Source: Nitrospira sp.
GTDB lineage: Bacteria; Nitrospirota; Nitrospiria; Nitrospirales; Nitrospiraceae
DNA: 64,000 bases
Direction: 5' to 3'
Assembly (NCBI GenBank): GCA_029194665.1
Contig: JARFXO010000001.1
Location: forward strand, 62,001-126,000
Shown here: in pieces, positions 3,761-34,574 of the stretch
How the letters are laid out: each line of letters starts with the position of its first letter
Position numbering within the stretch: the first letter of the stretch is position 1
Program-made: the position numbers and the translations under genes
The notes under the pieces: model-generated
Database searches by the model: none
What the model was told of the DNA's origin: nothing
Seen by the model: the letters and a program-made list of their open reading frames with translations, nothing else

Positions 3761-4144
3761 GCCGCATTCTAGCAGTCCGGAAATGCGAAGGATACCGATC
3801 ACATCGGCGCCCGCGGCCTGGAACCTACCCGGTTGGCCAAAGCCGTTGTCTGAGGAATCCAAATGTCCAGTGCATCGTCCATTCTAATACGCTAGGGAAA
3901 CACCCTCATTCTCAACCTCGGGAGGTTAATGAGTTGTGTCTCTCGCTGTTCCGAGAGAGCAGAGAAACACAAGAGTTGTTCCCGAGCCTGTTTGAGCTTC
4001 ATCTGAAGAGTGCCAAGCCGCGAGGCCAAGGCTGCCTTGCCCCCTTACGCTGACGCAGATGATCTACCGTGAACCTGCTGCCTTGAGCGGCTAATCAACT
4101 TTGCGGTATGGTACCCATCCGATCTCCTACTTAGGGCGACTCGG
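3761..4144. other. Divergent intergenic region between priA-like and TIR genes
   Basis: These 384 bp separate two divergently read genes, and no convincing ORF lies here. A possible promoter for the TIR operon is TTGAGC at 4083-4088 with TATGGT at 4107-4112 (spacer 18), which would start transcription about 25 bp before the TIR start codon. Nothing else was recognised. Confidence 0.35.
4083..4112 (+). promoter_or_regulatory. Candidate -35/-10 promoter of the TIR-TPR operon
   Basis: The boxes are TTGAGC, an 18-bp spacer and TATGGT. The match to the sigma-70 consensus is moderate. The position just upstream of the start codon at 4145 is suitable, but single matches of this quality also occur by chance. 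Confidence 0.25.
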
Positions 4145-5080
4145 ATGCCGACCGTCTTCCTCAGCTATTCCCGCGCTGACCTGCCGCTTATCGAGCAGCT
4201 TGAGGGGCAACTCACGACACATACCGGGATTTCCATCTGGCGCGATCAGGACAAAATCTACGGCGGGCAGAAATGGCCGAAGGTCTTAGGTGAAGCCATC
4301 GCCGATCAAGACGTATTTCTCCTCGCCTGGTCCAAAAACTCAGCCGCGTCCCATTTCGTGGAGTTCGAATGGTGTACGGCGATCGCGCTCAAGAAGACGA
4401 TCGTCCCTTGCCTTCTTGACGATACACCGCTTGCCTCGTCGCTCAAGGCATTCCATGGGTATCGTCTCAATCATGCGACTGGACTGATCCAGTCCTTGCG
4501 AGGCGCACCGCTTGCCGATGTGCAAAGACGGGAACCGGTTCTTCGCAAGCTCAACGACATCACTGCAACAGAAGCGACGGCCGTGCTCGAACAGGCCAAG
4601 TCCGTCTTTGCCCAACAGCAGTGGACGGTGCAGGGGAACCTTTACCAGGCCGGTGGCGATATCCACATTCACAATGAGCCCTCGACCGCGAGCGTTGCCG
4701 GAAAAACCAAGCCGCTCGTCGAGAGATGGCAGGCCTGGGCTGGCTTGGCCGTCGCGATTCTGACTGCCGTGACACTCCTCTTGGATCTTCCATCGAAGTG
4801 GGGCGGGCGACCTCCGCCAGCCGCACTGTTGGAGCAAGAACTGTCGGGGACCGTGCTGGACGAGGCGACCGGCGAGCCTCTACGGGATGTGGTCGTCTCC
4901 CTGCCTGATTTCGACATGAAGAAACTGACCGACCGTGATGGATCCTTCCGTTTTCGGGTCACGAAAGAAAAGCAGGCCCGGATCAAATTTACGGCGCAGA
5001 AGGAGGGGTACAAGACCTACTCAAACTACGCCACCTTGGGGAACACTGACCTCAGTTTTCCCATGGAGAAGAGTGAGTAA
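4145..5080 (+). CDS. Membrane-anchored TIR-domain protein with C-terminal carboxypeptidase-regulatory-like domain
   Basis: The protein has 311 residues. Residues 1-110 are a TIR domain: the start MPTVFLSYSRAD is the typical first strand and box, and SHFVEFEW (residues 69-76) carries the Glu expected at the catalytic position of NAD-cleaving TIR enzymes (E75). A short motif GDIHIHN near residue 171 is followed by a single hydrophobic helix at about 198-215. Residues 232-311 (SGTVLDEATGEPLRDVVVSL onward) resemble a carboxypeptidase-regulatory-like beta-sandwich. This suggests a cytoplasmic TIR tethered to the inner membrane with a periplasmic sensor or binding domain. The stop codon overlaps the start of the TPR gene (TAATG), so the two are coupled. 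Bacterial TIR proteins often act in anti-phage immunity by depleting NAD+. That role is inference here. Confidence 0.82.
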   Translation: MPTVFLSYSRADLPLIEQLEGQLTTHTGISIWRDQDKIYGGQKWPKVLGEAIADQDVFLLAWSKNSAASHFVEFEWCTAIALKKTIVPCLLDDTPLASSLKAFHGYRLNHATGLIQSLRGAPLADVQRREPVLRKLNDITATEATAVLEQAKSVFAQQQWTVQGNLYQAGGDIHIHNEPSTASVAGKTKPLVERWQAWAGLAVAILTAVTLLLDLPSKWGGRPPPAALLEQELSGTVLDEATGEPLRDVVVSLPDFDMKKLTDRDGSFRFRVTKEKQARIKFTAQKEGYKTYSNYATLGNTDLSFPMEKSE

Positions 5081-7143
5081 TGCGCACAGGCACCTGCATT
5101 GTCGTGCTGACATTAGTACTCCTGAGTCTGGAGGGATTTGCTCGTGCTGAGAACTGGCTACAGGGCCAAGTATTCGAAAACCACGGCAACACGAAAAAGC
5201 CGGCACTCGGCGCACAGGTCTGGATCGTGAACGTCGGCAATCCCTTTTTCACGAAACTCGATGGTGGCTATCGTGTGCTGGTACCCGATGCCTATCGGGT
5301 CGGGCAAACCATCGTGCTCTACGTCAAGCGCAAGGGGTGGGCCATTGCCACGCCAATCGGTGGAAAAGTGGAGCTAAAGGAAGATTTCAAAAGTGACATT
5401 TTTCTCTTGCCGGAACCGTCTCCGGAATTTCTGTCGCCTGCACAACTCGACAAGCTCCTTGAGAGGCTGCCGGAAAAGCTGAAGAGCCAGGTCAAACCCG
5501 ATGTCAAAGAAGGAAGTACAGATCCGGAGCAGGTGGTGAGGGAGTATGCGACCGAACATGGGCTTCCAGAGCAAGAGGTCCTCGCCAATGTTGCGGCCCT
5601 CGTGAAGCAATACGAGCAATCGAGCGACTTGGGCAAGCAGTGCCTTGCCGCGGTCTATCAAAAGAACTTGAAACAGGCTGCTACACGGTGCGAGCAGAAT
5701 GCGACCAGCAAGGTGGACTTGCTCAAGAAAAAGCGTCAGGAGGTCGAGGCCCTTTCTAAGAGCCAGTTAAAGAGCGACCGGTCAGTTGAACCCTCGTTCG
5801 TATATGAATCAGGCGAAATCATTCTCGTGACAGACCGGGCTATGCAATTACGGGCCGATCCCGAGCCACGAGCTAGTCGTGACACGCTGTTTGTGGAAGC
5901 TGGTCCGGGTAAGTCCACACCAGCCCAGATCGAAGAAGGGCGACGTCAGCTGATTAAGCTCACGGAAGAAGTGGTAGGCGAATTCAAGTCTACGGGCGAC
6001 ACCTATTACGCCAACTACCAATTCGACAAGGCACTTGTTTCATACAATGAAGGCCTCAGCTACGTTGAGAAAAAGGATCTCCCAACCCTCTGGGCGGACA
6101 TGCAGTGGACTATTGGCCTGGCTGATTGGCAAATCGGCATCCGCACGAAAGAGGCCGCCATTCAGGAAAATTTAGCCGAAGCAGTGAACAGATACAAAGA
6201 GGCACAGTCAGTTTATACACAGTCCGCGTTTCCAGAGGCCTGGGCTGCAATCGAGAACAATCTCGGCGCCGTGCTGAGCGAGCAAGGCATTCGCACCGGC
6301 GGCGAGAAAGGCACCCGCTTGCTCGCCCAGGCTGTCGCGGCCTATCGCGCCGCGCTCACGGTCCGTACGAAAGAGCAGCTCCCGCAAGACTGGGCCACGA
6401 CCCAGAACAATCTCGGCGCCGTGCTGAGGGAGCAAGGCACCCGCACCGGCGGCGAGGCCGGCACGCAGCTCCTCGCCCAGGCCGTCGCGGCCTATCGCGC
6501 CGCGCTCGAGATTCGCACTAGAGAACACTTACCGGAAGGCTGGGCTCAAACCCATAACAACTTGGCAAAATCCGCGCTTGCGCTTGAAGACTGGCCAACC
6601 GCAGCCGAGTCTTATCGTAATGTGCTGACGCTGTATCCGGACTACAACGAGGCTTATCAGATAACGAATGGCGTCTATCATGACAAACTCTTCGCGTACA
6701 CATCGGCCTTTGAATTATCGAAACAATGGTTGGACCGGCACCCAGCGGATGTGTCCGCCCAGGCCAATTTTGCTGAAGCGCACCTAACGACAGGGCGCTA
6801 TGGAGAAGCCGAACACCGTCTTGGAGAACTGCTGAAGAAACCTGACCTCGATCCCAATGCTTGGGCTGGGCTTCGCATCGTGGATGTTGTCACAGCTCTC
6901 GCCCTGAAGAAGGCCAACATCGTTCCTCAGAAGCTACAAGAGCTCCGCACATTCGTCTCAGGGCAACCGGAGAGTTTTCATCCTGACTGGAGTTTTGACG
7001 GAACGACACACTTTGTCCAGACCGAGCAGGTCTTCGCACCCCACCGCGCTTGGCTCATGGAGCTGTTCGCGGTTGTGAAGTCCAAGGACCGCGCCGCGCT
7101 CCTGGCGGCCCTGGATCACGTGCAGTCCAGCTTTAAACCTTGA
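5080..7143 (+). CDS. Secreted TPR-repeat protein coupled to the TIR gene
   Basis: The protein has 687 residues. A Sec signal peptide at 1-23 (hydrophobic IVVLTLVLLSLEG, cleavage after FARA) indicates export. The next hundred residues (WLQGQVFENHG...) resemble the beta-sandwich seen at the C terminus of the TIR partner. A Glu/Lys-rich region follows, then TPR-like helices from about residue 300 to 600. Within these, two almost identical 50-residue units begin NNLGAV at residues 393 and 443. The start codon overlaps the stop of the TIR gene by one base, so stoichiometric co-expression is likely. It may sense or scaffold something in the periplasm and transmit to the TIR membrane protein. No enzymatic motif is seen, and the pair is not one I recognise as a described system. 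Confidence 0.78.
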   Translation: MRTGTCIVVLTLVLLSLEGFARAENWLQGQVFENHGNTKKPALGAQVWIVNVGNPFFTKLDGGYRVLVPDAYRVGQTIVLYVKRKGWAIATPIGGKVELKEDFKSDIFLLPEPSPEFLSPAQLDKLLERLPEKLKSQVKPDVKEGSTDPEQVVREYATEHGLPEQEVLANVAALVKQYEQSSDLGKQCLAAVYQKNLKQAATRCEQNATSKVDLLKKKRQEVEALSKSQLKSDRSVEPSFVYESGEIILVTDRAMQLRADPEPRASRDTLFVEAGPGKSTPAQIEEGRRQLIKLTEEVVGEFKSTGDTYYANYQFDKALVSYNEGLSYVEKKDLPTLWADMQWTIGLADWQIGIRTKEAAIQENLAEAVNRYKEAQSVYTQSAFPEAWAAIENNLGAVLSEQGIRTGGEKGTRLLAQAVAAYRAALTVRTKEQLPQDWATTQNNLGAVLREQGTRTGGEAGTQLLAQAVAAYRAALEIRTREHLPEGWAQTHNNLAKSALALEDWPTAAESYRNVLTLYPDYNEAYQITNGVYHDKLFAYTSAFELSKQWLDRHPADVSAQANFAEAHLTTGRYGEAEHRLGELLKKPDLDPNAWAGLRIVDVVTALALKKANIVPQKLQELRTFVSGQPESFHPDWSFDGTTHFVQTEQVFAPHRAWLMELFAVVKSKDRAALLAALDHVQSSFKP
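6256..6555 (+). repeat. Two tandem 150-bp repeats inside the TPR gene
   Basis: Units 6256-6405 and 6406-6555 encode consecutive 50-residue TPR-like units starting NNLGAV. They are close to identical at DNA level over most of their length, which implies recent unit duplication and likely copy-number variation between strains. Confidence 0.75.
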
Positions 7144-7218: not shown

Positions 7219-7309
7219 ACCTGTATGATGGATGTCTGGTGTCAGAACACGTCCTCTTTCGTGAGTATGATGGTGCATGGAATCGCCATGGTGCGAAGGA
7301 GGACGTCAA

Positions 7310-8467
7310 ATGGGAAGCCAAACTATTGTTCCCCGGGACTACGATGTGTTTGCTGGATTGGATGTGGATAAGCGGAGTATCTCGGTGACCTTTACGGATC
7401 ACCAAGGCGTGAGTCGATCGATGCAGATTCCGTACAGTGTCGAGCATCTGTTGGCCTACGTGGGCAAGCACTTTGCGGGCCAAAAAGTCGCCTACGCGTA
7501 TGAGGTGGGCCCCACGGGCTACGGCTTGTATGATCGGTTGGTGGCCGCTGGCGCTCCCTGCGTGGTGGCCGCTCCGTCGATGATCCCCAAAGCGCCTGGG
7601 CAGCGAGTGAAGACCAATCGGCTGGACAGTCGGGGGCTGGCGGAGACGCTGCGGGGAGGACAATTGAAGAGCATTCATGTGCCCGCGCCGCCCTATCGCG
7701 AATTGCGGCATCTCCCCCAACTGCGCGACACGTTTGTCCGCGAGCTGGTCGGCATGAAGCTGCGCATCAAAGCCCTGTTGCTCCTGGAAGGGCTTGCGTT
7801 TCCCCCGGCCCCAGCGGGCAGCTAGTGGTCGTGCCTGGTGAAGCAGCAACTCCGCCAGCTGGCCTGCTCGGGGGCGGTGCGTTTTAAGCTGGATCAGTTG
7901 CTCGACAGTGTAGCGTTTCATGAACAGCAGGTCGTGAAGACGACCAAGGAGATCCGCCGCTACTGTCAGTGTGATCCCGAGCTGTCCCGGTGCCTCGCGT
8001 TGCTGCGGACGATTCCGGGGATTGGATGGATCGTGGCCAGTCAGCTGGTGGCCAGGATCGGGGATTGGCGGGAACTGCGCCACGTCCGCCAACTGGGTGG
8101 GTTTCTGGGCGTGGTGCCCACCGAGCGCTCCACCGGATCGCATACCGATCGAGGCTCGATCACCCGCACAGGAGATAGTCGGTTGAGAAGTAAACTCATC
8201 CAGGCCGCGTGGTCGGCCATCCGCCAGGACGGCGAGCTGCGGGATTTTTACCGCTCGGTGTGTCGGACTCATCCGCGTCATCTGGCTGCGCGGGTCGCCA
8301 TTGTGGCGGTAGCGCGGAAGCTCACGACGCGCATCGCCGCGGTCTTGATGCAGCAGCGGCCGTATGTGGTCAGAGCAAGCGTGCAGGCGGGTCCTGTGGC
8401 CCAAGAGGAGACATCGCCCCAGGGAACGACTCGACGACTGGCAGAACCGGGAGGCTCGCACTCCTGA
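7310..8467 (+). pseudogene. IS110/IS1111 transposase interrupted by an in-frame amber codon
   Basis: The start at 7310 has a strong Shine-Dalgarno sequence (GAAGGAGGA, 7295-7303). The N-terminal part carries the DEDD RuvC-like domain: first Asp in FAGLDVDK, Glu in YAYEVGPTGYG, and the NRLDSRGLAE segment. The C-terminal part carries the Tnp_IS116/IS110 domain (LLRTIPGIGWIVASQL, then GGFLGVVPTERSTG with the catalytic Ser region). A TAG at 7823-7825 splits the two domains and the frame is the same on both sides. This is therefore a single nonsense change, not a frameshift. A GTG at 7838 could restart translation of the second half. The element is probably immobile unless the stop is read through or a functional copy exists elsewhere. 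Confidence 0.85.
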
Positions 8468-12813: not shown

Positions 12814-15800
12814 CTAACTCAGATAGAGATACTGAAGGAACGCCACGAGGCCATAGAATGAAGATTCGACCACGGGTTGCTGCCATAAGGGCACAAAGGC
12901 GCCCTGGCCCACCGCCTCGATGTCTTCAATGACCTGACGGGTCAGCTTCACATCGCCATCGCTTGCCGCGCCGCGATCCAGCCCCTTCAGAACAGCGTGG
13001 TTGAGCCTCCTCAGAATGGCATGGCGCGCTTGCTCCGCTGCGCGGTACAGGAGCAGTGCCGCAGCCATCGCCAGCAGGACGTTGACCACCCATCCCACCA
13101 TCATCGTCAGGGGAAAATGCCAGTCGTCGAAATAACTATTGCGCGCCACCATCACGACGAGCAGGACGATGAAGGGATACCGCACGAGCCGATTGACGAC
13201 GTCGGTCCGCTGCGAAATCAGGTCGATCTTCATCAACTCCTGGGCTTTGACCATATTCTCCGGCCGCTGCCATTCGAGATGGTCCGTCAGGGCCGCGGGC
13301 CAGCCCTCCGTCACCTGATCCAGCGCGCCGATCCACCGCCGGCAGAGGAGGACGGCATCGAAGACGAACAGGTTGAGTCCCGCCAGGCAGACGAAACTGG
13401 CCAGCGCCAGCACCACATCTAGATGACAACTAAACAGCCCCCGGCAGGGGCCGGAAAAGTCTTCGGTCCCCATGACCTTCCAGAGCAGCATGAAGAGCAT
13501 GGCATAGACCGTCATGAGGATCAGCAGCCGCATGAGGCGGTTCAGCCCTGACCCGGCCTCACGGTAGAGCTGCCAGAGAGGGCCGGCCTGCATGTCGCTC
13601 TGCAGGCCGCGCGGGGACAGGCCCCATTGCACCGTCGTCAGGTATCGTCGCCATCGTTCTGGTTGTGCCTTGTTCGCCTCAAGCGCAAACCCATATCGTT
13701 CCGTCATGTGCTCCAGATTCGACCGGAGATTCCACCAGCCTTTGACCAGCAGAACCAGCGCCAGCAACGTGCCTAGGCCACGCAGTATTTCTGTCGGCCA
13801 CAGACTGACCCCTTCGAACCAGTAAAACGGCTCGCCCTGGTCGTGATCTCGCAGCAGCAGATCAAGCAGAACCTTGTCGACGACAAAGGCCAGTGCGAAG
13901 GCGCCTAGGGCGCCGAGTGCCAGCTCTCTTGTGTGCCGCGTCACCCACTGATGAGAGTCAGGTCTGGTCCAGCAGATGACGAAACCGATCAAGTAGGCCA
14001 GACCAGCGGTCCCATAGAGGGCTCCGGAGGGAGGACGTCGGCCGTTCGTCTGGGGATCGTGATTGGAGAGATCCACCCTGGGTGGATGGAGGGTGTACCC
14101 TTGTTCAATCGTGCCCACTGAGAGATCGATCGCGCCATGACGGCCGACTTCGAAGAGCCGGGGCGGTTCCTCCGCGCTGAACCACACGCGATCCGCCGTC
14201 AGATTCGCCTTGTAGCCGCAGGGTGACAAGGGTGTGTCGGCCACCGGCCGGCTCGCGGCCTCGGGAGGACAGGTGCGTAGCGGCCACACATGTCCCACCG
14301 CTTGAAGGATCGCGAAATAAGCGGAGGTTTGGTAGCTACTGCGAAAGGGCGGCACGTCACCCTGCAATAGGCCGTACAGTTCCAGCCCGTAGTGGGATGC
14401 CAGCACGAGATTCCTCGTCCAGTGGTAGTCCTCCGCATAGACCAGCCTGCTGTCGAGATCGGTCGTAAAGAATACGGCGTCAGGAAACCGCTCGCGCATG
14501 GCTTGTAGCACCAGCAACGCGTCGTAGGCGTCGCTGCCGAGGATGCCGATGGCCGCAACCGGCTTGAGCCCTGCTTCCTTGTCTCCTCCTTCACCCTCGG
14601 CCTTTAAATACTTCCTGAGATTGGCCTCTTCGGTCATATCCCGCTCGATGCGAGCGGCCAGACGTTGCGCATAGTCGAACTGGCTCGTCCCGACCGGCCG
14701 TTCAAGTATCTCATTCCCGAACAACGTGCCCTTGACTTGCTTCGTTGCACTCACCCTCGCCCCCTCGCCCTTGTCCCCGCCGGGAAGCTCTCCATCGAGT
14801 CCGCGAAGATAGCTGTAGCGCCGGATGTTGAGCTCGAGCTCGCGCGTCCCTGACGGGTTCCTGACCTGAAGATCGACCGCTTGATCATAGGTCGCACAAT
14901 CAGCTTGAATCCTTGCCAGGCGATCCGCCTCGATCGCCCGGTTGTCCTCGTCGGACCGATGGGCAATGCGACTGCAGACCGCCGCGGTGAATTCGACCGG
15001 CAGCACTCGACCGTAGAACGAATCCCATTCCCCAATCAGGACGATGGCATCACGCTCAAACTTGACCCGCCGTCGTTCAAGCTCCTGTATCATGGCCTCA
15101 AACAGATGATCGTCGGATCCGATGCTGTGTTTGAGCTCGATCCCGACCCGCAGCAGGATCCAGCAGAGCTCCGCCCGGCTTGCCCGGCTCGCGTCGGGCG
15201 AGGCGCATTCGGTGGATTCCGGCGGCTTGGGCCTGACGGTGATCCCTTGCGTCAGAAGCTTAGGCATGGCCGTGGCCCAGGGTGAATAGAGTTCAATGCG
15301 GCCGCCGTAGTTGGCCCAAATCACGTGTGCTTCCCGCCCTTGGACCGAGGCTGCGGCTTCTTCCAGGAGATTGCGGAAGGCCGAGGAGCTGCGCGGGCCG
15401 ACGATTTTGAACCGCACATGCTGCTCCCGCTGGAGATCCAGCAGCACCGTCCCGTCCTCAGACCTGCGGCAGACATGGCGTCCAATGGAGCTTTCGGTAC
15501 AGAGAATGGACTCTGTGAGCCGCCGAAGCGCGGCGATAGGGCGATCCCCAGCGATCTCGCTGCTGATCCACAGAACGAGGACCGCCTGGGCCCAAGTTGG
15601 TTCAAGCGAACAGGTGCGCAGCCCCTCTTCGTACCACTCGTACGGCAAGACCCGGCTTGCACCACTCTGGTCCCGCCAGACGATATACGACAGCTGATCT
15701 TCCTGCCGCGGTGCATAACAGGCCACGCCGAGGGCCGAGCCGATGGCGTAGCGATCACGGATGCGGCTTTCCCGGCTTTCTCCCGATGAGCCACCATCGG

Positions 15801-16143
15801 TCGCCACCAGCAGAACGGTGATGGGGCGTCCTTCAACCAGAGCGATCCTGTCATCCAGTTCTTGCCGGAGAACTCTGACCCGCTCCACATCGTCTTTCAC
15901 CTCCCCGCCCGCCGCCGTCAGGATGCCCTCGCCTATTGCCACGCGCCGCACGGCTTCCAGGGGGTCCTCCCACAGTCGAGCCTGCACCAAGCCTTCCGCC
16001 GGATGGGGCGCAGGCTGGCCCCCCAACGAGGGTGGCCTGGTGCTCTTCAGCGGCTGTTGGACGAGCAGCACTCCGGCAATCGCCAACCCCAGAGTAATCG
16101 TTCCCGCGACGGCTAGTTTGGAATCGCCTTGCTTCTTTGCCAT
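12814..16143 (-). CDS. Large membrane protein of unknown function (1109 aa)
   Basis: One N-terminal membrane helix (residues 10-29) is followed by a soluble region of about 650 residues. The C-terminal third has six or seven helices, among them YLIGFVICW, LALGALGAFALAFVV, LGTLLALVLLVKGWW, LILMTVYAMLFMLLW and FIVLLVVMVA. The soluble part has an Asp-rich NTPase-unlike segment near VLLVATDGGSSGESRES. Around residues 530-650 a region (IGILGSDAYDALLVLQAMRE, then VFFTTDLDSRLV and NLVLASHYG) resembles a type-1 periplasmic-binding fold. I do not recognise the family as a whole. The topology suggests a periplasmic or extracytoplasmic sensing domain on a membrane platform. It is co-directional with the esterase gene. 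Confidence 0.65.
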   Translation of the reverse strand: MAKKQGDSKLAVAGTITLGLAIAGVLLVQQPLKSTRPPSLGGQPAPHPAEGLVQARLWEDPLEAVRRVAIGEGILTAAGGEVKDDVERVRVLRQELDDRIALVEGRPITVLLVATDGGSSGESRESRIRDRYAIGSALGVACYAPRQEDQLSYIVWRDQSGASRVLPYEWYEEGLRTCSLEPTWAQAVLVLWISSEIAGDRPIAALRRLTESILCTESSIGRHVCRRSEDGTVLLDLQREQHVRFKIVGPRSSSAFRNLLEEAAASVQGREAHVIWANYGGRIELYSPWATAMPKLLTQGITVRPKPPESTECASPDASRASRAELCWILLRVGIELKHSIGSDDHLFEAMIQELERRRVKFERDAIVLIGEWDSFYGRVLPVEFTAAVCSRIAHRSDEDNRAIEADRLARIQADCATYDQAVDLQVRNPSGTRELELNIRRYSYLRGLDGELPGGDKGEGARVSATKQVKGTLFGNEILERPVGTSQFDYAQRLAARIERDMTEEANLRKYLKAEGEGGDKEAGLKPVAAIGILGSDAYDALLVLQAMRERFPDAVFFTTDLDSRLVYAEDYHWTRNLVLASHYGLELYGLLQGDVPPFRSSYQTSAYFAILQAVGHVWPLRTCPPEAASRPVADTPLSPCGYKANLTADRVWFSAEEPPRLFEVGRHGAIDLSVGTIEQGYTLHPPRVDLSNHDPQTNGRRPPSGALYGTAGLAYLIGFVICWTRPDSHQWVTRHTRELALGALGAFALAFVVDKVLLDLLLRDHDQGEPFYWFEGVSLWPTEILRGLGTLLALVLLVKGWWNLRSNLEHMTERYGFALEANKAQPERWRRYLTTVQWGLSPRGLQSDMQAGPLWQLYREAGSGLNRLMRLLILMTVYAMLFMLLWKVMGTEDFSGPCRGLFSCHLDVVLALASFVCLAGLNLFVFDAVLLCRRWIGALDQVTEGWPAALTDHLEWQRPENMVKAQELMKIDLISQRTDVVNRLVRYPFIVLLVVMVARNSYFDDWHFPLTMMVGWVVNVLLAMAAALLLYRAAEQARHAILRRLNHAVLKGLDRGAASDGDVKLTRQVIEDIEAVGQGAFVPLWQQPVVESSFYGLVAFLQYLYLS

Positions 16144-18711: not shown

Positions 18712-20763
18712 CTAATCTAGGAGTGCCTTAATCAGTGCATCTTTCCCCTCAGTGAAATACTGAATGTTAATTTTGGTCACCATGTCATCGGACAGATCAT
18801 TCATCTGTTTTCTGGCCGAAACTGGGATCAGCAGAGTTGTCGCTCCCTTTTCCACCGCAAGCTCGGCGATGTTCACCGCGTTGTATACCGGATCGATGGA
18901 GCCTCCCAGGTTCAGCCCTCCCACGACTACTAGGCCGCCTTTGAGGCTCTTCTGTAACAGCGCCGAACACAGAGCTAACAATACGCCTACTCCAACGGAA
19001 GCCCCGGTTTTCGAAGAATCAAATGCACGCAACTGGGCAGAAAATTCATGCTCCCTAGGATCTCGATCTCCTACGAGTTCTTTGGCCCGTGCGTAGAGAT
19101 TCTGCTCGGCACAACGGACGCTTTCTTTGAACGGAGGGGGAGCCGGCTGATTCAATATCTTCACCCCGCTGCCCGGTCCTTCAGTCACATCAATGCGATA
19201 AAGGCCTGCATTGTCCTCCTGCGCGCCGGGAGAAATCACCCATACTTGTCCTGGTGGGAGTGGATCACTGCCGATGCTATCTTCGCTATAGAGCTCTGGT
19301 GTCGCGACAAATTTCTCCACCCCTTCTTCGCCCAAGGCATAGCTGAATTGGGTATTTCGAAACTCAGCTGAACCGATCCGCTTTTGCTGCTCTTTCACCC
19401 GACGGCGGCATTCGAGCGCCAACCGCAAGGCCCATTCGAGAAGTTCGTCTGAGACAGGAGTGTCCGGATTTGGCGACAGGAGTTTGACGAGTCCGCTCAC
19501 ACTCTTTTGAACGGCGGTTACATCCCGTCCACTGAGCGCGCCCCCCAAATGAACACGCCCCTGCAGCACATTTTGCCTGCTTTGGCGTCGCAACTGATTC
19601 CAACACTCGGACAAAAAATCACTGACTAATCCAAAATGATCGGTTAAGACATCTCGGTTGATTTTGGGGATGTCCCACCCTGGAAGATAGGAATGGAGTC
19701 GATCCATAAACGCGGTGTCATCACGCATCTCCTGCGGCAAAGGACCCAAAAGATGCCCGATCCGCTGCTGATGTTGCACATCGACGTCGAAATTGCCGAC
19801 CATCACGATCCCGCCATCAGCCCGGATACTTTCCTTGCCCCTGCTGAACTCGGCCGACTCCATGTAACCTTTCATGATGTTGACGCCGTCTTTCTGATCA
19901 AACGACACACCAGAAATCTCATCGAAACAGACGACGTCATACTGGCAGACTAAGCCTCGTTGGCCGCTGGCATTGTTCACGAACATCCTGGCGACCGTCG
20001 CCTTACCCCCTGAGATAAGATGCGCATAGGGAGAAATCTGCTGGAACAGATGGCTCTTGCCGGTTCCTCGCGGACCAAGTTCCACCATATTGTAATTTCG
20101 CTCCACAAATGGAACCATGCGCAAGATGCACATGTCCTGCGCTCGCGCGGACAGTTTCTGTGGTTCTAAGCCGACACTTCTGATAAAAAACTGCTTCCAT
20201 TCCTCGAGTGAGAACAACTCTCTGCCACGGTACAAAGTGGGCAGCACATCGCGCTTCGAAATCTGGATCTCCCGCAAAGATTCCACTCCAAAGGGACGGC
20301 CATTTCGCTCCTGCGCGATAGTGGGATCGTAGGTCAGCTCGACCTCGGCATAAAACCCGCCGGTGAGCATACGTTCGTTCGCATGAACCAATTCCGGGCT
20401 AATCCGCACATCCCTGAGCTGCAAACTGGGCAACGTGGCTAAAAAGGAATCTGTTGCAGCATCCAGTCGGGCCGTAATGAGATCAATGAGTTTGACGTGC
20501 CCCTTGTCTTTGGCCCGGGCCTTAAAAAGTTCGTGCTCGCCGGCTCGCACAGTCTTCTCTCCAAGCTGGCGCTCCACAATCTGTAGCCCCTCGCGGATTT
20601 CGTCCTCATCGACCGACGCGCAGTAGCGACCGAGCAGGAATTCCGCAACATAGGTGGGCACGGGATACTGCCCCTTGAACTTCCGGACGAGATCCTTGCG
20701 GACGACGTAGCCTTCAAAGGCCTTGGCTGCAATCTTGTCGAGCGCGTCAAGTTCCAGTGTCAT
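18712..20763 (-). CDS. brxL: BREX protein BrxL (AAA+ ATPase with Lon-like domain)
   Basis: The protein has 683 residues, the full length for BrxL. Walker A is GPRGTGKSH at about residue 230, Walker B VVCFDEISG at about 278, with an arginine-finger region near TAFMDRLHSYLPGW. The C-terminal domain is Lon-like (TGASVGVGVLLAL, about residue 589). The canonical Lon lysine position reads LGGSIDPVYNAVNIAELA with no Lys in the usual place, so protease activity is doubtful. BrxL binds DNA as a multimer and is needed for phage exclusion in type 1 BREX. The start overlaps the pglZ stop (ATGA). It is the last gene of the locus. Confidence 0.92.
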   Translation of the reverse strand: MTLELDALDKIAAKAFEGYVVRKDLVRKFKGQYPVPTYVAEFLLGRYCASVDEDEIREGLQIVERQLGEKTVRAGEHELFKARAKDKGHVKLIDLITARLDAATDSFLATLPSLQLRDVRISPELVHANERMLTGGFYAEVELTYDPTIAQERNGRPFGVESLREIQISKRDVLPTLYRGRELFSLEEWKQFFIRSVGLEPQKLSARAQDMCILRMVPFVERNYNMVELGPRGTGKSHLFQQISPYAHLISGGKATVARMFVNNASGQRGLVCQYDVVCFDEISGVSFDQKDGVNIMKGYMESAEFSRGKESIRADGGIVMVGNFDVDVQHQQRIGHLLGPLPQEMRDDTAFMDRLHSYLPGWDIPKINRDVLTDHFGLVSDFLSECWNQLRRQSRQNVLQGRVHLGGALSGRDVTAVQKSVSGLVKLLSPNPDTPVSDELLEWALRLALECRRRVKEQQKRIGSAEFRNTQFSYALGEEGVEKFVATPELYSEDSIGSDPLPPGQVWVISPGAQEDNAGLYRIDVTEGPGSGVKILNQPAPPPFKESVRCAEQNLYARAKELVGDRDPREHEFSAQLRAFDSSKTGASVGVGVLLALCSALLQKSLKGGLVVVGGLNLGGSIDPVYNAVNIAELAVEKGATTLLIPVSARKQMNDLSDDMVTKINIQYFTEGKDALIKALLD

Positions 20764-23099
20764 GGATTCTCTCCTAAGGTCGTAGGCGACGAATGGATGA
20801 CCTCATGAGATGCATTGAGAAGAACGATGGTAGCTTGTTTCCCAATATCGGCATCGTTCTCCAAGAAGACGACCACAGCCCTATCACTGCCGATGGTTTT
20901 CGGTTGTCTTCCAGTCAAGAACGAGGTGCTCGGATCACTCTGGCGCACTCGTACATCGACACTCAATCCCTCTGAAGAACCATCGACGGTAATCCGGCAT
21001 CGCGCTCCTGTCCAACGCGCATCAGCAAGTCTGGTTTCTTTTCTGGTCTGTTGTCCAGCTCGTACCGTCATGTGGAGGACAACCATTTCCTGTAATGAGA
21101 CGCCTCCATGCGAATACTCCATCCCAGCCTTAAAACACCCCGCGCCGGGCGGGACTACGACACGAACGGCATCATTCCACTGCCAGGCGAACTCCGGCAA
21201 GTTGGTGGCCACACCTGACTTGATGGCAGCACAGCGCCCCCACCGATGTTCTGCCAGATAGGCTTTCAGCTCCACCTTGGGCAAGCCACCGGGAAGCAGC
21301 AACCACCCGTGGTCCGTCACCACCTGAATTTCCGTCCAGCCGGCTTCGATCAATGAACGAATACGAATGGCCAGATCCCGAACTTCTCCTGCCACCGCAC
21401 GAGCCAGTTTCCAACCTTCGTTATGCCCTCGTTTGTCGAGCGTCCCGGCTTCCGTCCATGCTGAGCCGGTCGGGTCGCCAGTGTCCGCACCGCCCAATAC
21501 TTGCCATCCCTGTGCCGCGAGCGCCTGAACGAATCGATCTTGCGTGATGCGCTGCCCATTTTCCAAGGTCGGGGCGAACTCATCACTGATGTCACCATTT
21601 CGCAGCGTACTGACCAAGGGAGAGCACATGGGCTTCGCGGTTGCCGTGACGCTAGGAATCGGTGTCCAATCCCAATCGAGTGTCGCATCCAACCCTTCTT
21701 CACCGAGACGCTGTTGCAGCAACGTCGCGACATCAAACCGAAGCCCATCGGCAAACAGGACGACACGGCCCACAACCGGTATGTTCACAGCGTGACGTCG
21801 TGCGGGAGCTTTCCGAGTCGCTGCCAACAAATGTTGGAGATGTCGGGCTGTCGCCTCGAGCCAAGGCAAATACATGGCGCGCAATGCTCCGAGCACTGGC
21901 CCATGCTGATCGATGGCTTCGCAGGCTGCCATCACAGCAAGTGCTGCCGCATCGACTTCCCACGCTTGCTTCACATAAACCTCGGCAAACGCCTCGGCCG
22001 TCGGGCCGCCCGGTGGCTTCTGGCATAGTGCGGCCACCTTAGCTAGCGGTTCCAAGGCGACTGCTAATGGGCTTAATCCTAAAGCTCGCCACGGGTACTG
22101 CCGACGAACGCCGTGATGCCTCTCCAACTGCAGAATGTCATGAGCGGCTCTATCCAATGGCAGATTCGCCACAGCAGTGAGCGCTGCAGTAAGCTCACGC
22201 TCCTGCTGGTCATTGATCGAAGGCCATACTTCACCGGTGTCATACATCGAAGGGACCTTGGGTCCGGCACGTCGCAGCCATTCGACCACGCCCCGATAGT
22301 TGGAAGGCGCTTCGACGAACCGTTGCCACACCGCTGCCCAATGATTGTCTCGATTGGCAAGCAGCTCAACAGCTCGCATGGGGCCATCCTTTTCAGGGTC
22401 GAAACGATAATCGGCTTTGCATTGCTGGCAGAACGCATGCCACTCCGGACTACTGGTTCGCTTTCTGAATCCATCCGAATCATGGAGCCAACGCAAGATC
22501 AGTCCTACCGGGTCCGGCGCCATGAGTTCATTGAAGAAGTCAGCATCGAGCATTTTGCCCCGCAGATCGTCAATTCGCTCGTCCAAAAGTTTGGGCAGGG
22601 CGCGCAGTAGCGCATCCTGAGTCGCCTGATCACGAGGGACGTTCAGGCCCAGACCGCCATGATCGGAGACCAGAAAGGCGAACGGCGTCCACTCCTTGCC
22701 GTTTGGATGCAGCCAGAGCGCCCCGCGAAATTGCATCTCGGCCAAAGGGGCAAGATCCGAAGAAAGCGATTCAAGATCTCTAAGTTGGTCGTACTTCAAG
22801 TGAGGAAGATAAACAATTGGCGTCGTGCCAGTGGCCGGCGCTTCAGGGACGGTCCGCGCCTCGACGCAGCGCAGCCATAGAGCCGGCCCGCGACGTTCTG
22901 TCGGCGCGTAGGTTCCAAGAATGAACAGTTCCGACATGGACTTGGCTAGTTCAGGAATGATTGTCTCCCATAGCCGGTCTGGGTCTAGCCACAGCACCGC
23001 GCATGGGGCAACTTGATCTCCAGGCGCATAGGCCCGCGACACCCTGCGCAGGGTTTCGGCGAGGACTTCTGCGACCGTCAGATTGTCAGGAGCGCTCAT
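20760..23099 (-). CDS. pglZ: BREX phosphatase-like protein PglZ
   Basis: About 779 residues from the ATG at 23099, which overlaps the stop of the AbiEii-like gene by four bases; the longer frame starting further upstream lies inside that gene and is rejected. The alkaline-phosphatase-like domain is marked by VVLFADGLRFDVATLLQQ (about residue 448) and VVTDHGWLLLPGG (about residue 595), holding the metal-binding Asp and His residues. PglZ is a core BREX component that partners the PglX methyltransferase. Coupling to the AbiE-like gene upstream and brxL downstream puts all four in one transcript. Confidence 0.92.
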   Translation of the reverse strand: MSAPDNLTVAEVLAETLRRVSRAYAPGDQVAPCAVLWLDPDRLWETIIPELAKSMSELFILGTYAPTERRGPALWLRCVEARTVPEAPATGTTPIVYLPHLKYDQLRDLESLSSDLAPLAEMQFRGALWLHPNGKEWTPFAFLVSDHGGLGLNVPRDQATQDALLRALPKLLDERIDDLRGKMLDADFFNELMAPDPVGLILRWLHDSDGFRKRTSSPEWHAFCQQCKADYRFDPEKDGPMRAVELLANRDNHWAAVWQRFVEAPSNYRGVVEWLRRAGPKVPSMYDTGEVWPSINDQQERELTAALTAVANLPLDRAAHDILQLERHHGVRRQYPWRALGLSPLAVALEPLAKVAALCQKPPGGPTAEAFAEVYVKQAWEVDAAALAVMAACEAIDQHGPVLGALRAMYLPWLEATARHLQHLLAATRKAPARRHAVNIPVVGRVVLFADGLRFDVATLLQQRLGEEGLDATLDWDWTPIPSVTATAKPMCSPLVSTLRNGDISDEFAPTLENGQRITQDRFVQALAAQGWQVLGGADTGDPTGSAWTEAGTLDKRGHNEGWKLARAVAGEVRDLAIRIRSLIEAGWTEIQVVTDHGWLLLPGGLPKVELKAYLAEHRWGRCAAIKSGVATNLPEFAWQWNDAVRVVVPPGAGCFKAGMEYSHGGVSLQEMVVLHMTVRAGQQTRKETRLADARWTGARCRITVDGSSEGLSVDVRVRQSDPSTSFLTGRQPKTIGSDRAVVVFLENDADIGKQATIVLLNASHEVIHSSPTTLGENP

Positions 23100-24151
23100 A
23101 TGGCCTGCTCCGCCGGGGCTACATGGTGATCGTTGATCCGGCGCTCGAGCGCGCTCAAACCATTCAAAATTTCTTCCCATGGAGGATACACACCAAAGAT
23201 CATTGCCCGCATCTCGGCGTAGTCTTTCCGGAGCGCGGGCAAGCGGTCCTCTCGCGGAACAAGGTGAAAAGTCCCGGGTCGGGCTGTGTTGTAGCTCGCC
23301 CATGCCGAGGCAAAGAACAATCCCTTATGCCTGACGACACGGTCAAGAAGATCCAACCGAATCAACGCCTGCCGACCGATGTCATCTTGTGACAATCGGT
23401 AGAGGTCGTAATAATGCCTCGACACACGTTCTATCGGCGCCTTTTCTGCGGGGCGATGATAGTCGGCATGAAGGAGGGTCGCCTTTTCCCAAAAGGTCCT
23501 CACGGCCTCCATGGTGTTCACCGAGCAGGAGACAGCGATGCGAAATGCCTCGGGAAAGGCCTCGGCGGCATAGGATCGAATGACACGTTGCTCAGCCGGC
23601 CAATTGTCTGAACGCGCACCCAACTCCAGCCGGATCGCAGGGCGAATGTAGGATTCACTCTCTCCGGACAAGCCACTAGAAGGATAGGTAAAGATTACCG
23701 TCTGTGGATCGGCAGGATCGAGGGCAAGGTTCCATCCGGACGGACCGATCACGCGAGCAAAATCCTGCCGAAGTTCTGGGAGCAATTTGTTCTTGATGGT
23801 ACTCTGGCATGCGGACACGAGCGCATCAAGACGACGAGTCGATTCCTTCTTGCTGATCCCTGGTTCTTCTGGATCCCGGTCATCGGCAAATCCAAGATCT
23901 CGTCGGCTCAACGAGAGGTCCACATCTTCTGAAAACCGTTCGATGAGTTGATACGCCTTAGACAACGAGGTGCCTCCCTTGAAAATGAGCTGAGGTTGAA
24001 AGCGCATGACCTCAAAAACTCGTCGCAACGTCCAACAGACCCAGAAATCCTTTTCGATGATGACCGGTGACCGCGCCGGTTGCAACTGAGCGGTAGCCTG
24101 TTGAAATAAATCAGCGCGATCCTGTGGCGATGCCTGAGCCACGCCGTCCAT
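23096..24151 (-). CDS. AbiEii-like nucleotidyltransferase toxin
   Basis: The protein has 351 residues. The nucleotidyltransferase core is visible: IIEKDFWVCWTLRRVF, FKGGTSLSKAYQLI (residues about 57-70) and RFSEDVDLSL with the metal-binding acidic residues. A DPADPQTVIFTYPSS segment and RPAIRLELGARS follow. AbiEii toxins nucleotidylate tRNA or protein targets and cause abortive infection when not neutralised. The start overlaps the stop of the AbiEi-like gene (TAATG) and its own stop overlaps the pglZ start, so toxin synthesis is tied to that of BREX proteins. Confidence 0.87.
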   Translation of the reverse strand: MDGVAQASPQDRADLFQQATAQLQPARSPVIIEKDFWVCWTLRRVFEVMRFQPQLIFKGGTSLSKAYQLIERFSEDVDLSLSRRDLGFADDRDPEEPGISKKESTRRLDALVSACQSTIKNKLLPELRQDFARVIGPSGWNLALDPADPQTVIFTYPSSGLSGESESYIRPAIRLELGARSDNWPAEQRVIRSYAAEAFPEAFRIAVSCSVNTMEAVRTFWEKATLLHADYHRPAEKAPIERVSRHYYDLYRLSQDDIGRQALIRLDLLDRVVRHKGLFFASAWASYNTARPGTFHLVPREDRLPALRKDYAEMRAMIFGVYPPWEEILNGLSALERRINDHHVAPAEQAI

Positions 24152-24768
24152 TACCTGGCCTCTTTCACAATGATCTGATGCAGGACCGGCTTCATCCAGG
24201 CCGGGGCATGAGCGAGCGCCCGCGCAAGGTCAGCCCTGTCCCGTTTGTGGAGCACTGAGCGGAGCCGGGCGATCTTCTCAGGAGTCACTCCCGCCTTCCC
24301 GACATACCGCAGCGCCTGAAGAACCAGTGCGCTCACACGACCTGCCACATCCATGGTCTTGGGTCCCCGATTCAGGAGGCGAACCGAGTAAGGCCCCAGT
24401 GTCAGCGTCTTGGTTCGTCCGTTCGTGTAGTACGTAATTCTTGCGGGGACCTGAGTGGTGAGGCCGAGCAGGTTGGCGGCATAGGCGCCGGAGGGAACCA
24501 GCCGCAATCCATTCTTTTTGGCCCAGGCTTGGGCGAGTTCATCAGGCGATGGCACCGCCGACCGCTTGAGCAACGCGCTGGTGCGAGGCCAGGCGTACAG
24601 GCCTCGTCGAACCCGCAGAATACGACCCTCCCGGACCAACCGCGAGAGAGCTTGATCTACGGCAGCTCGAGACCCTAATTCTGTGAGGTCCTTGACGGAG
24701 ACGACCGCACCGGCCGACGATTCAAGTCTTGCTAGGAGCTTACGGGCAATGGGGTGAGAGACTTTCAT
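24151..24768 (-). CDS. AbiEi-like antitoxin/transcriptional regulator (DUF6088-type)
   Basis: The protein has 205 residues. An N-terminal winged helix (VKDLTELGSRAAVDQALSRL with wing REGRILRVRRGLYAWP) is followed by a domain with LVPSGAYAANLLGLTTQVPA and KTLTLGPYSVRLLNRG, as in AbiEi/DUF6088 proteins. These neutralise AbiEii and repress their own promoter by binding inverted repeats. A 30-bp palindrome lies 11 bp upstream of the start codon, in the right place for such an operator. The gene opens the second transcriptional unit of the BREX locus. Confidence 0.85.
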   Translation of the reverse strand: MKVSHPIARKLLARLESSAGAVVSVKDLTELGSRAAVDQALSRLVREGRILRVRRGLYAWPRTSALLKRSAVPSPDELAQAWAKKNGLRLVPSGAYAANLLGLTTQVPARITYYTNGRTKTLTLGPYSVRLLNRGPKTMDVAGRVSALVLQALRYVGKAGVTPEKIARLRSVLHKRDRADLARALAHAPAWMKPVLHQIIVKEAR

Positions 24769-24778
24769 GGCGATTTAA

Positions 24779-24808
24779 TGTCAGAAAAAGCGATCGTTTT
24801 TTCTGACA
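24779..24808. promoter_or_regulatory. 30-bp palindrome, probable AbiEi operator
   Basis: The arms are TGTCAGAAAAAGCGA and TCGTTTTTTCTGACA, inverted copies differing at one position. It lies in the 89-bp gap between pglX and the AbiEi-like gene, just upstream of the latter's start. Autoregulation by AbiEi through inverted repeats is known in the family. Binding here would control abiEi-abiEii-pglZ-brxL. Confidence 0.65.
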
Positions 24809-24857
24809 ATAGAGCGTCCGCTCCCGAATTGCAATATCTGCCTACCGAACACCCCCC

Positions 24858-27800
24858 TCATTTCTTGTGCAAGGAAGCGTTGGAATCGATCGAACGCCGA
24901 GCTTTTCTCTTTGCTTCGAGAGTCAGATGATGATCGTTTATGCGCTCCCCTTTGAAGATCTTGAACCAGGGAGCGCTGGTCACATCAGTTCCTCGATCTT
25001 TGTTCCACTTGATGTTCGGCTTGGCGCGTAAGATGCCAGCGCCTCTCTTTCCGACATCTCTCGCGCTCATGAAGGGACGGATGTTCAGTCGTATCCCGTC
25101 GTTCAGATCAGGGGCCCAGCCAATCGGTTGCTTCTCAATTGGCTTCCAGCGAACAAAGATGTCGTAGGGCGGTTCGCCTTTGAGGATATTCTCTAGCTCC
25201 TGCTGAAGTTCTTTTGCTGCCTGAAGCCGGGCATCACTGCCGGCCTCGCCGGCAGTGACTGCTGTCTTCTGACGACTGATCCAGTCACCGAGATACGAAT
25301 AGGTCAGCTTCTCCAGATTTGATTTGCTGAGCTGATGATAGTTCACCAGTGCGCTGAATCCATCTTTGCGGCCATCCCAGATGTGCCAGATGAACGGGCG
25401 ATGGTGAAAGAGTGCACAGTGTTGCTCGAAGAACCCATTCCGAAGCCAGTCTTCGAGTGACTTGCCGGCATGATCGACTTGTGCCAGGAGTTCAGCTTGC
25501 TTGGCCGCAGTCCATTCCGAGCAGTAGGCTGCAGCCAAAAGAGCACGTAGACGCTCCGCGGCTGGTTCCTCACCTTTGATGGCGGAGATACAGACAATCC
25601 CGTCGGAATCTGCGAACTTCTCCAAGCCTTCCTCGCCCAATGCTGGACAATCAGGGAAGCTGGAGCCAGTTTGGCGAGGCCATCGATAGCCGAGAAGCCT
25701 CGCGACAGCAACCTGGAGGGGATAGTCTGAGCCGTTAGGATGGCCGCTGAAGAGCCACTGAGTCGGGTTGCTGGAGAACGGTTTTGGCAATCCTTTCGGA
25801 TGATCCACACTCGCCACGCCCAGCCAACGGTGAAGGTCAAAAGGAACCTTCAGAAGTGTCGCTGGTGTAACACCTAACTTCTTGTCGAGTTTACGAACGA
25901 GAGCTGTGAAATCACTCGATGTACAAAATGCCCACAAGGCTAGTAAATGCCTGTCACTGGTTGGGACCAACACTGCTGTGTTCTGGTCGTAAAGCTCTCC
26001 AGTGTATAACGAGGCTGGGAGCTCGGCCATTCTACTTACCGCAATTCCCAATTTGCCGTATGCTGGATTCCCTAAACCTGGTCTGAGCATCCCGCGTCCA
26101 CCTGTGGACCAGTCAATTACTCTATCTCTTCCGCCATAAGTAATGGTCGACAAAACGGCCGACTGCATCCACCTCCAGCGATTCGTGATGGCAGGCAGCT
26201 CCGAGAAGAACCGCAACCATAATTCTTGATCTCCATTGACCACCCCCCGCGGAGACAGCGCGTACCTCCCCAAAAGGGTTGCACATTCGATCGCTTCCGA
26301 TGTTATGCGGATGTCAGGACTAGAAAGGTACGCTGTCTGGCTAACCCTTACTGGCTGTTGAGAGATGATACTTGCTAGCTTCTCCCTTGGGTCCTGGTTT
26401 TCTGAGACATCAATACAACATGCTTGCTCTTTTCCGTTGGGTCGGAGGTTGTTAAAGCACAACAGAGCAACGTTGACTACTTCGCCACCAATTGTTTCGA
26501 AAGCACCAGATCCTAACCACACTGCGAACATCAGACGCTGCCTTTTCAGGCATTCTTCACGCAGCACTTTGTAGCTGCCCAAGAAAAGCCAGTTTTGCGG
26601 TGTCACAAGTGCAGAAGACCCGTCAAAAGTGGTGAAGTCGAGGCAGCGCTCTACAAAGCAAGTAGCTAGATCTGCTTTAGCCTTGGGATGATGGCTTGCA
26701 CAATAGTTCTTGAGCTTGTCTTCTTGCTTTTTCTGTCCAAGGTAAGGCACGTTAGTTGCGACTAAAGTAAATTGGTCGGATAGAATTTCTGCTGCATGAG
26801 CCAAACCCTGTGCAGTCACAGCCAATTCGTGCCCTGTTTCATCCCTGCGTTCATTCTCCCGTTCCAACGCCTTTTGAAGCAGCGGTTGCAGTTCTTCGAA
26901 TTCTGCGCTGAGTAGATCGCCGCCAAACTTTCGAGGATCGATCAGGCTCCCCAACGTGGGTCCGTCCTTAAATACCTGATAGAGCCGTTCCATTCCTTCG
27001 CGCAGGCGTTGATTGCCATTGGCGAGCTTGGTCCAAGTCTCCAATTTCGTACGCGGCGCAAGGCCGGAACAGGCGAGGTTCAGCGGCAGAAGTTTTTGAA
27101 AGCCGGCGAGCTTCCAGGCCGCAAGCGCGAGATTAAATGCCGCAATCTGAGTGCAGCGGGCGTCCAATTCGAGGCCATAAAGGTTGTCTCGGAGTACAGC
27201 AACCACCGCCTCTTCAACGGTTAATCCTTCTTCAGCCATTCGCATGGCCACGAGGATCGGCAATTCCGCCACGAGGAAATGTCCGCTGCCCATGCAGGGG
27301 TCGAGAACACGAATCTCCTGTGCCGTCTCAGGCCAGCCGTCAAACGTGCCGGCAGCGGGATGCCAATCGCCATTCTCACTTTTGATGAACCGCAGGTAAG
27401 TCCACTCGACACCTGGGATCCCAGCCACCTTTCTCGCTTCTTCCTCAGTCTCAACCTTGAACTTGGTCGGATCTGCTTGTGCCAGCTTTCCCGCCCACCA
27501 GGCCCCAAGCGTGTTGTGCAATAGAGAGAGGACCATATAGTCCTCAGTGAAGAGCTGAGTAACCGGTGCCAGTTCGTCGGCTCCAATCTTTGTGCCCGAC
27601 TCGTTCACTTCCTCTTTTCGTTTGGCTTGCCAGAATTGGTAGACCCAGCCGAGCGAGTCGTCTGCAAGGAAAACTTCCGTCGGCAAACTCATCACGAACT
27701 GAATGAGCTGCTTACGGTCTTCAATAGGCAGGTCGATGCGGCCGGCTGGATCATCCGCCCGGAATATCTCTGGTAGTTCCTTCGCTGCAAACTTGGCCGC

Positions 27801-28199
27801 GACCGCCCAGCCATCTGGCAAATCAAGATTGGGCGCGAGTTCCTCACAGTCGTGAAGGGACACAGCGACGCCATGTTCGGGTGAGAGCAGCAGATTATTC
27901 TCGATTAAGAATCTGGCGAAGAGCAGACGATGCCACTGATCGTAGGCAACTTTTTCCTTGAGGTGTGTGATGTCATACGCGCCCTTCTTGGCACCGATTT
28001 CCTCGTCACCCAGTTGTCTCGCCTGTGCGCGAAGGGCTCGCCGAAGGAGGCGTTGCTCTTCATTCAGGTGCTTGTAGGGTTCCGGTTCGTGAACCGCCAA
28101 AGCTTCAAGCGCTTTACGTGCACCGACCTCGGCAGCTTCTCTCGCCTGCAAGACAGTCTTGCCGAGTTGCTTGCGAAGTTCCGATGAAAGGGCCTTCAT
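24858..28199 (-). CDS. pglX: BREX adenine-specific DNA methyltransferase PglX
   Basis: The protein has 1113 residues, close to the usual 1200. The SAM-binding motif VLDPCMGSGHFLVAELPIL lies at about residue 298. The catalytic motif IV reads TNVPYLG at about residue 483, where most amino-methyltransferases have NPPY. N-terminal helices and a long C-terminal target-recognition region make up the rest. PglX marks host DNA at an asymmetric site with N6-methyladenine and is required for BREX discrimination of self. The start overlaps the brxC stop by four bases. Base composition is like its neighbours. Confidence 0.93.
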   Translation of the reverse strand: MKALSSELRKQLGKTVLQAREAAEVGARKALEALAVHEPEPYKHLNEEQRLLRRALRAQARQLGDEEIGAKKGAYDITHLKEKVAYDQWHRLLFARFLIENNLLLSPEHGVAVSLHDCEELAPNLDLPDGWAVAAKFAAKELPEIFRADDPAGRIDLPIEDRKQLIQFVMSLPTEVFLADDSLGWVYQFWQAKRKEEVNESGTKIGADELAPVTQLFTEDYMVLSLLHNTLGAWWAGKLAQADPTKFKVETEEEARKVAGIPGVEWTYLRFIKSENGDWHPAAGTFDGWPETAQEIRVLDPCMGSGHFLVAELPILVAMRMAEEGLTVEEAVVAVLRDNLYGLELDARCTQIAAFNLALAAWKLAGFQKLLPLNLACSGLAPRTKLETWTKLANGNQRLREGMERLYQVFKDGPTLGSLIDPRKFGGDLLSAEFEELQPLLQKALERENERRDETGHELAVTAQGLAHAAEILSDQFTLVATNVPYLGQKKQEDKLKNYCASHHPKAKADLATCFVERCLDFTTFDGSSALVTPQNWLFLGSYKVLREECLKRQRLMFAVWLGSGAFETIGGEVVNVALLCFNNLRPNGKEQACCIDVSENQDPREKLASIISQQPVRVSQTAYLSSPDIRITSEAIECATLLGRYALSPRGVVNGDQELWLRFFSELPAITNRWRWMQSAVLSTITYGGRDRVIDWSTGGRGMLRPGLGNPAYGKLGIAVSRMAELPASLYTGELYDQNTAVLVPTSDRHLLALWAFCTSSDFTALVRKLDKKLGVTPATLLKVPFDLHRWLGVASVDHPKGLPKPFSSNPTQWLFSGHPNGSDYPLQVAVARLLGYRWPRQTGSSFPDCPALGEEGLEKFADSDGIVCISAIKGEEPAAERLRALLAAAYCSEWTAAKQAELLAQVDHAGKSLEDWLRNGFFEQHCALFHHRPFIWHIWDGRKDGFSALVNYHQLSKSNLEKLTYSYLGDWISRQKTAVTAGEAGSDARLQAAKELQQELENILKGEPPYDIFVRWKPIEKQPIGWAPDLNDGIRLNIRPFMSARDVGKRGAGILRAKPNIKWNKDRGTDVTSAPWFKIFKGERINDHHLTLEAKRKARRSIDSNASLHKK

Positions 28200-34395: not shown

Positions 34396-34555
34396 TTGTC
34401 CATCCCATGATTTTTAGTGGGACGGGCAAGAGCGCCTGATTCTTGGATGATGGGCCGTAGGGTGGCCGGCAGTTCGCACGAGTGGCCGGTCGCAGTACAA
34501 GCCAACCGGACATGCCTCGATCGCAAATCGAGCGTGCGGTTGGCTTTTGTGTTTT
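34396..34555 (+). ncRNA. Structured leader with terminator-like hairpin before the carbon-pump operon
   Basis: The first stem is TTGTCCATCCCA (34396-34407) paired with TGGGACGGGCAA (34418-34429), 12 positions with one wobble and one mismatch. A second, long stem is AAGCCAACCG (34499-34508) with CGGTTGGCTT (34537-34546), containing an inner CTCGAT/ATCGAG stem, and it runs into a T-rich tract (34543-34555). That looks like an intrinsic terminator 20 bp before the start codon of the first pump gene. No gene on this strand lies upstream that needs terminating, so attenuation or a riboswitch-like control is likely. A weak alternative pairing GGCCGGT/ACCGG could compete with the terminator. Confidence 0.5.
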
Positions 34556-34574
34556 CAGAATCCTTGAGGTGATG

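Follow-up and report, generated by a model that had tools for sequence, protein, structure and literature searches.

A TIR protein with a predicted membrane helix and its exported TPR partner form a conserved gene pair in Nitrospira, a candidate outside-in receptor-effector

The window analyzed here, a stretch of 64,000 nucleotides from a 4.8-Mb Nitrospira genome (G000), contains two overlapping genes that code for a TIR protein with a predicted membrane helix and for an exported TPR protein, and the same two genes recur side by side in related genomes. The pair is real and old and not a product of chance, because it has been kept across two families. We hold the chances evenly balanced that it is a two-component receptor-effector working from the outside of the cell inward. 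Such a receptor would most likely gather in response to a signal in the envelope and cleave NAD+, probably as a defense against phage. The features of the locus are the following.

4083..4112, plus strand: conserved leader with the promoter-like pair TTGAGC-18-TATGGT, from the alignment of locus copies
4145..5080, plus strand: gene 1 (ORF1), 311 aa, comprising TIR, linker, TM helix and carboxypeptidase-regulatory-like sandwich
4154..4453, plus strand: TIR domain of gene 1, residues 4-103 (Pfam TIR_2, E 4e-17)
4715..4783, plus strand: single predicted TM helix of gene 1, residues 191-213, with which hydropathy in 15 homologues agrees
4841..5035, plus strand: CarboxypepD_reg/transthyretin-like beta-sandwich of gene 1, predicted to lie outside, residues 233-297 (Pfam E 6e-8)
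5080..7143, plus strand: gene 2 (ORF2), 687 aa, the partner, predicted to be exported
5080..5148, plus strand: signal peptide of gene 2 as read from the sequence, residues 1-23, ending in ARA before EN
5149..5415, plus strand: N-terminal beta-sandwich of gene 2, homologous to that of gene 1 by profile-profile comparison, residues 24-112
5425..5781, plus strand: helical domain of gene 2, residues 116-234, followed by a disordered loop, residues 235-280
5920..6960, plus strand: TPR superhelix of gene 2, residues 281-627 (Pfam TPR_12/TPR_19, and a long superhelix in the structure model)
6240..6560, plus strand: two tandem TPR units of 150 bp in gene 2, their copy number varying among genomes
6550..7140, plus strand: conserved C-terminal region of gene 2, residues 491-687

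The preliminary description, made from the letters alone, had proposed a TIR domain with a catalytic-type Glu, one membrane helix and a beta-sandwich in gene 1, a one-base overlap, and an exported TPR protein that begins with a similar sandwich; domain searches, profile comparisons and structure models bore out each of these elements. Pfam finds TIR_2 and CarboxypepD_reg as the only domains of gene 1 and TPR as the only one of gene 2. In structural comparison (VIA-align), the gene 1 TIR matches known TIR structures with Z scores of 13-16 (SARM1 14.7, ThsB 14.8, SPARTA 14.5). Four of its residues, D34, S69, E73 and E75, are invariant across 14 aligned homologues, and a gapless alignment of the TIR profile with SARM1 sets E75 on the Glu of the DWVHKE motif, the catalytic E642 of SARM1. 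The solved sequence closest to the profile is that of Cat1 (E 6e-4), whose D33, S68 and E74 correspond, by motif spacing, to D34, S69 and E75 of gene 1. In Cat1, growth arrest is abolished by S68A and E74A, and NAD+ cleavage in vitro is lowered by D33A (PMC12162218). Because the alignment that HMMER makes with Cat1 has a gap of two residues, E73, which is also invariant, is a second catalytic candidate. The fold, the catalytic Glu and the surrounding active-site residues that mark the TIR-NADase effector class are all present, and the gene 1 TIR is probably NAD-cutting.

The sandwich of gene 1 is modeled with confidence (pLDDT ~94) and matches human carboxypeptidase D in its transthyretin-like domain (TM-score on the target 0.81); the linker between TIR and TM helix is of low confidence. 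A topology with the TIR inside and the sandwich and partner outside is predicted only. The reversed orientation of the helix is disfavored because no signal peptide lies ahead of the TIR domain and because a weak positive-inside bias makes basic residues commoner on the TIR side. Upstream, a leader of 50-60 bp with the promoter-like pair is common to the PriA-flanked and several of the EttA/HugZ-flanked copies of the locus; TTGAGC-18-TATGGT is a putative promoter that scored below the threshold of the consensus scan.

The stop codon of gene 1 and the start codon of gene 2 share exactly one base (TAATG), and every gene 2 homologue inspected opens with a hydrophobic N-terminal export signal. When compared by hhalign, the N-terminal segment of gene 2 matches the gene 1 sandwich with a probability of 93.9 and an E of 1.6e-7. 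This domain is barely visible to Pfam alone and is not resolved by the structure model (pLDDT ~30), and the assignment of its fold therefore rests on the profile comparison. The TPR array is extensible, going from the two 150-bp units of the window to about 14 in G084, with some units 91% alike (G108). Long partners keep the conserved C-terminal region in either family; a short partner of 435 aa, found in five genomes, lacks it along with most of the TPRs.

From these parts we infer a mechanism in which gene 1 would tether its TIR to the cytoplasmic membrane on the inside of the cell and display its small sandwich outside, where the related sandwich of gene 2 would probably dock; the extensible TPR superhelix would be the sensing part. 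Something that happens at the envelope, with adsorption of a phage or entry of its DNA as the most plausible candidates, might then bind or multimerize the TPR partner, causing the membrane proteins to cluster and their TIRs to align head to tail into a composite active site. Cleavage of NAD+ by this site would stop the growth of the infected cell, giving the pair an immune role. In the TIR NADases characterized to date, such as SpbK (PMC12847820) and Cat1 (PMC12162218), the composite active site forms when a sensor part brings the TIRs together.

The linkage of the two genes in other genomes, the absence of which the preliminary description had named as refuting it, proved to be complete: in each of the genomes of the order that have the partner (24 of 24), the TIR gene lies directly upstream, once as a fusion. 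These 24 belong to two families and were picked out from 235 genomes of the order by a partner profile built from the first 380 residues of gene 2; the profile detects 12 among 325 genomes sampled across the phylum, where the partner is confined to one order. Among 175 genomes of the family, close matches to the TIR gene were found in 23 and to the partner in 19. No match outside Nitrospira appeared in one scan of genomes and contigs, a search with a narrow coverage of the wider phyla. The two genes, where both are intact, overlap by 1, 4, 10 or 19 bases. In family genomes with a TIR gene that reaches the sandwich, the partner adjoins it or, in G070, is fused to it, a natural fusion that joins TIR, TM helix and sandwich to the TPR array. 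A second fusion, in G118, has no TM helix between TIR and partner and is frameshifted and decayed. At none of the 24 loci was the partner seen beside an effector other than TIR.

That the effector gene comes first and overlaps tightly with the gene of its partner, and that the partner was never seen without a TIR gene at the 24 loci, would also be expected of a self-killing pair akin to toxin-antitoxin systems, in which the partner holds the TIRs apart and inactive until its loss or displacement frees NAD+ cleavage. The toxin-type genes (HipA, HepT and PIN) that relatives carry at this site or close to it are in keeping with such a role. However, the 435-aa partner, shorn of most of its TPRs, is stable in its five genomes, and in G114 and G105 the TIR gene, open over the stretch seen, persists beside a broken partner. 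The partner is therefore not a strictly required antitoxin, and we consider this explanation unlikely.

The recurrent site occupied by the pair in Nitrospira has EttA/HugZ (or PriA, as in the window) on one side and an FAD monooxygenase with two alpha/beta hydrolases on the other. Pfam bears out the names of PriA and of the FAD monooxygenase, whereas the EttA and HugZ neighbors are presumably such, having been named by our own reading of the sequences. In relatives without the TIR gene, the same interval is either empty or holds one of several cargo genes, namely a Beta_protein gene matching PADLOC PD-Lambda-2_C (G079), GmrSD (G083), HipA (G104), HepT (G130) or an ABC exporter. Some loci carry such genes together with the pair, with a PIN toxin ahead of it in G114 and G284 and HipA after it in G107. 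The site is thus a variable one with conflict-type cargo and not a dense defense island. The preliminary description had proposed a search for co-occurrence of both genes near defense islands; the co-occurrence stands (24/24), but at most loci no classical island was found, the flanks being mostly housekeeping genes (EttA, PriA, FAD monooxygenase). In the window, a BREX cluster lies 11.6 kb from the pair, which is suggestive only.

That cluster (18712-32972) is type I-like, with BrxA, BrxB, BrxC, PglX, PglZ and BrxL, and has AbiEi/AbiEii inserted before PglZ (PADLOC); the listed ORFs of AbiEii and PglZ have ~200 bp in common. Directly after the pair, an IS110-family transposase (7277-8467) is split by an interruption into two ORFs (DEDD_Tnp_IS110 and Transposase_20). 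A 1109-aa membrane protein with no Pfam match (12817-16143) is kept beside the pair locus in relatives. Farther along are a DabA inorganic-carbon transporter subunit behind two NuoL-like genes (34482-42740), nearly identical duplicates of an outer-membrane-factor gene (43907-45532 and 54418-56043), and, in tandem, two N-terminal RND-pump halves that are almost identical (58988-60487 and 60557-62056). Elsewhere in the genome of the window, a second remnant of this TIR gene (residues 1-53) adjoins EttA at locus L102 (10013-10875; G000:C1:448012 onward), and after it come a kinase-like fragment and another TIR. Taken with L094/L095, this remnant suggests that recombination or inversion between the PriA site and the EttA site has its breakpoint at the 5' end of the TIR gene.

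The fixed chromosomal position amid housekeeping genes in many Nitrospira, along with the vertical-looking distribution of the pair within g27, a genus belonging to the second family, could point to a non-immune function in envelope-stress or aggregation signaling, with the TIR making an NAD-derived signal or serving as a scaffold in normal Nitrospira physiology. Against this, the patchy presence of the pair (about 20 of 79 genomes of the genus), its frequent decay, the constant effector joined to a fast-changing sensor and the defense cargo at the site are typical of conflict systems, and such a function seems to us rather improbable. Carriage of the pair by viruses or plasmids was also considered and rejected: the viral contigs searched encode no relative, and the plasmids searched have unrelated TIR proteins only and no partner.

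Stops or frameshifts interrupt the pair in G087, G095, G105, G114, G118 and G127, and TIR fragments occur in G067 and G073 and at another position in G000. In G127 (L091 27-3587), the partner is present in two tandem copies behind one frameshifted TIR gene. With so many copies broken, the system is evidently often dispensable. These interruptions and fragments are what might be left by a cassette on its way out, a module that recombination once spread and that now, mostly inactive, serves no function. Yet intact copies show a dN/dS of about 0.2 and the pair has persisted in both families, which makes this the case to which we give very little credence. The median pairwise dN/dS is 0.19 for gene 1 and 0.22 for gene 2, as against 0.026 for the neighboring EttA; purifying selection acts on both genes, and the sole region that is near neutral is the disordered loop of gene 2 (residues 235-280; dN/dS 0.9).

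The two proteins do not diverge evenly. Among the pairs of the Nitrospira family, the TIR half retains 66-93% identity, whereas between pair types the identity of the gene 1 sandwich falls to ~27-50% and that of the gene 2 sandwich to ~26-35%; between G000 and G108 the values are 88% for the TIR, 47% for the gene 1 sandwich and 34% for the gene 2 sandwich. The distances of the two sandwiches correlate closely (r 0.94-0.95), also when the TIR is accounted for (partial r 0.93-0.94), and none of 2000 permutations reached as high a value. A constant TIR-TM unit thus stands behind an outside cassette whose matched parts change together. The covariation alone does not imply contact between the sandwiches because both are adjacent on the DNA, and it can arise when neighboring segments move as a single block. 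This TIR type is found with other companions as well: at the same site with another outside domain (G126, L076), joined to a NACHT with many membrane segments (G104, G006), or joined to a second TIR. In the TIR-NACHT proteins with many C-terminal membrane segments (L087 7157-10066; L089 4143-7103), both the TIR and a linker motif are related to gene 1. Further membrane TIR proteins are encoded in G000 at 690-710 kb of C1 (L143 4417-13954), where a TIR-TM-beta protein after an exported 264-aa protein and a TIR-TM-FGE-sulfatase protein have exported trypsin-FGE proteins between them.

Placed among known systems, the TIR effector is of a known kind; what appears new is the sensing side, with its two genes and its predicted passage through the membrane. 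PADLOC and NCBIfam give only weak, TIR-level matches for gene 1 and none for the partner; membership of a catalogued defense family was rejected, as the matches in PADLOC, NCBIfam and Pfam are at the level of domains only. The mainly open-access literature searched yielded no description of a bacterial TIR with an exported TPR partner, and the earlier impression that no described system has this architecture has held in both databases and literature. With Thoeris ThsB and TIR-SAVED (PADLOC), gene 1 has only the TIR domain in common (E 3e-5 and 1.5e-7); no SIR2, macro or caspase effector and no SAVED/CD-NTase component is seen in the overlap-linked operon, and its predicted topology differs. 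The gene lists of the homologous loci, read by eye, likewise contain no ThsA-type effector (SIR2-SLOG, TM-macro or caspase) beside the TIR. SpbK and other single-protein bacterial TIR NADases share the catalytic-Glu TIR, and SpbK becomes active by self-association when its sensor is clustered; unlike the pair, it senses the phage portal in the cytoplasm and has neither a membrane sensor nor an exported partner (PMC12847820). Cat1, a CRISPR-associated TIR, differs in its CARF sensor for cyclic oligoadenylate and in forming a soluble filament (PMC12162218). The STAND/TPR and ternary conflict systems described by Kaur, Aravind and colleagues (PMC7159879, PMC8195603) resemble the pair in their interchangeable effectors, superstructure-forming repeats and variable sensors. 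In contrast to these, the pair has no NTPase (Pfam finds no NACHT/NB-ARC or other NTPase domain in either protein) and would signal across the membrane.

Sensing takes place in the cytoplasm in the bacterial TIR immune proteins that served for comparison (Thoeris ThsB, SpbK, Cat1, SPARTA and the CBASS TIR). We advance only tentatively, as a possibility with the balance against it, the wider proposal of a bacterial family of Toll-like transmembrane innate immune receptors, in which a constant TIR NADase would be combined with interchangeable, length-expandable periplasmic sandwich/TPR co-receptors that sense products of phages or rivals before genome entry. If true, TIR death triggered from the periplasm would become testable in bacteria, and the constant effector with its variable, matched sensors would supply natural chimeras for mapping recognition. 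An analogy may be drawn with the Toll and TLR proteins of animals, as a comparison of how the systems might work that claims no common descent. These have an ectodomain outside, a single TM helix, a TIR inside and a soluble outside cofactor (MD-2 for TLR4 and Spaetzle for Toll), a layout like the one predicted for the pair. The two differ in that the TIR of the pair is N-terminal and keeps its active-site residues, and its ectodomain is a carboxypeptidase-regulatory-like sandwich instead of an LRR. An operon that passes an outside signal via one TM helix to a TIR NADase would, if so confirmed, represent a prokaryotic counterpart of the Toll-type topology.
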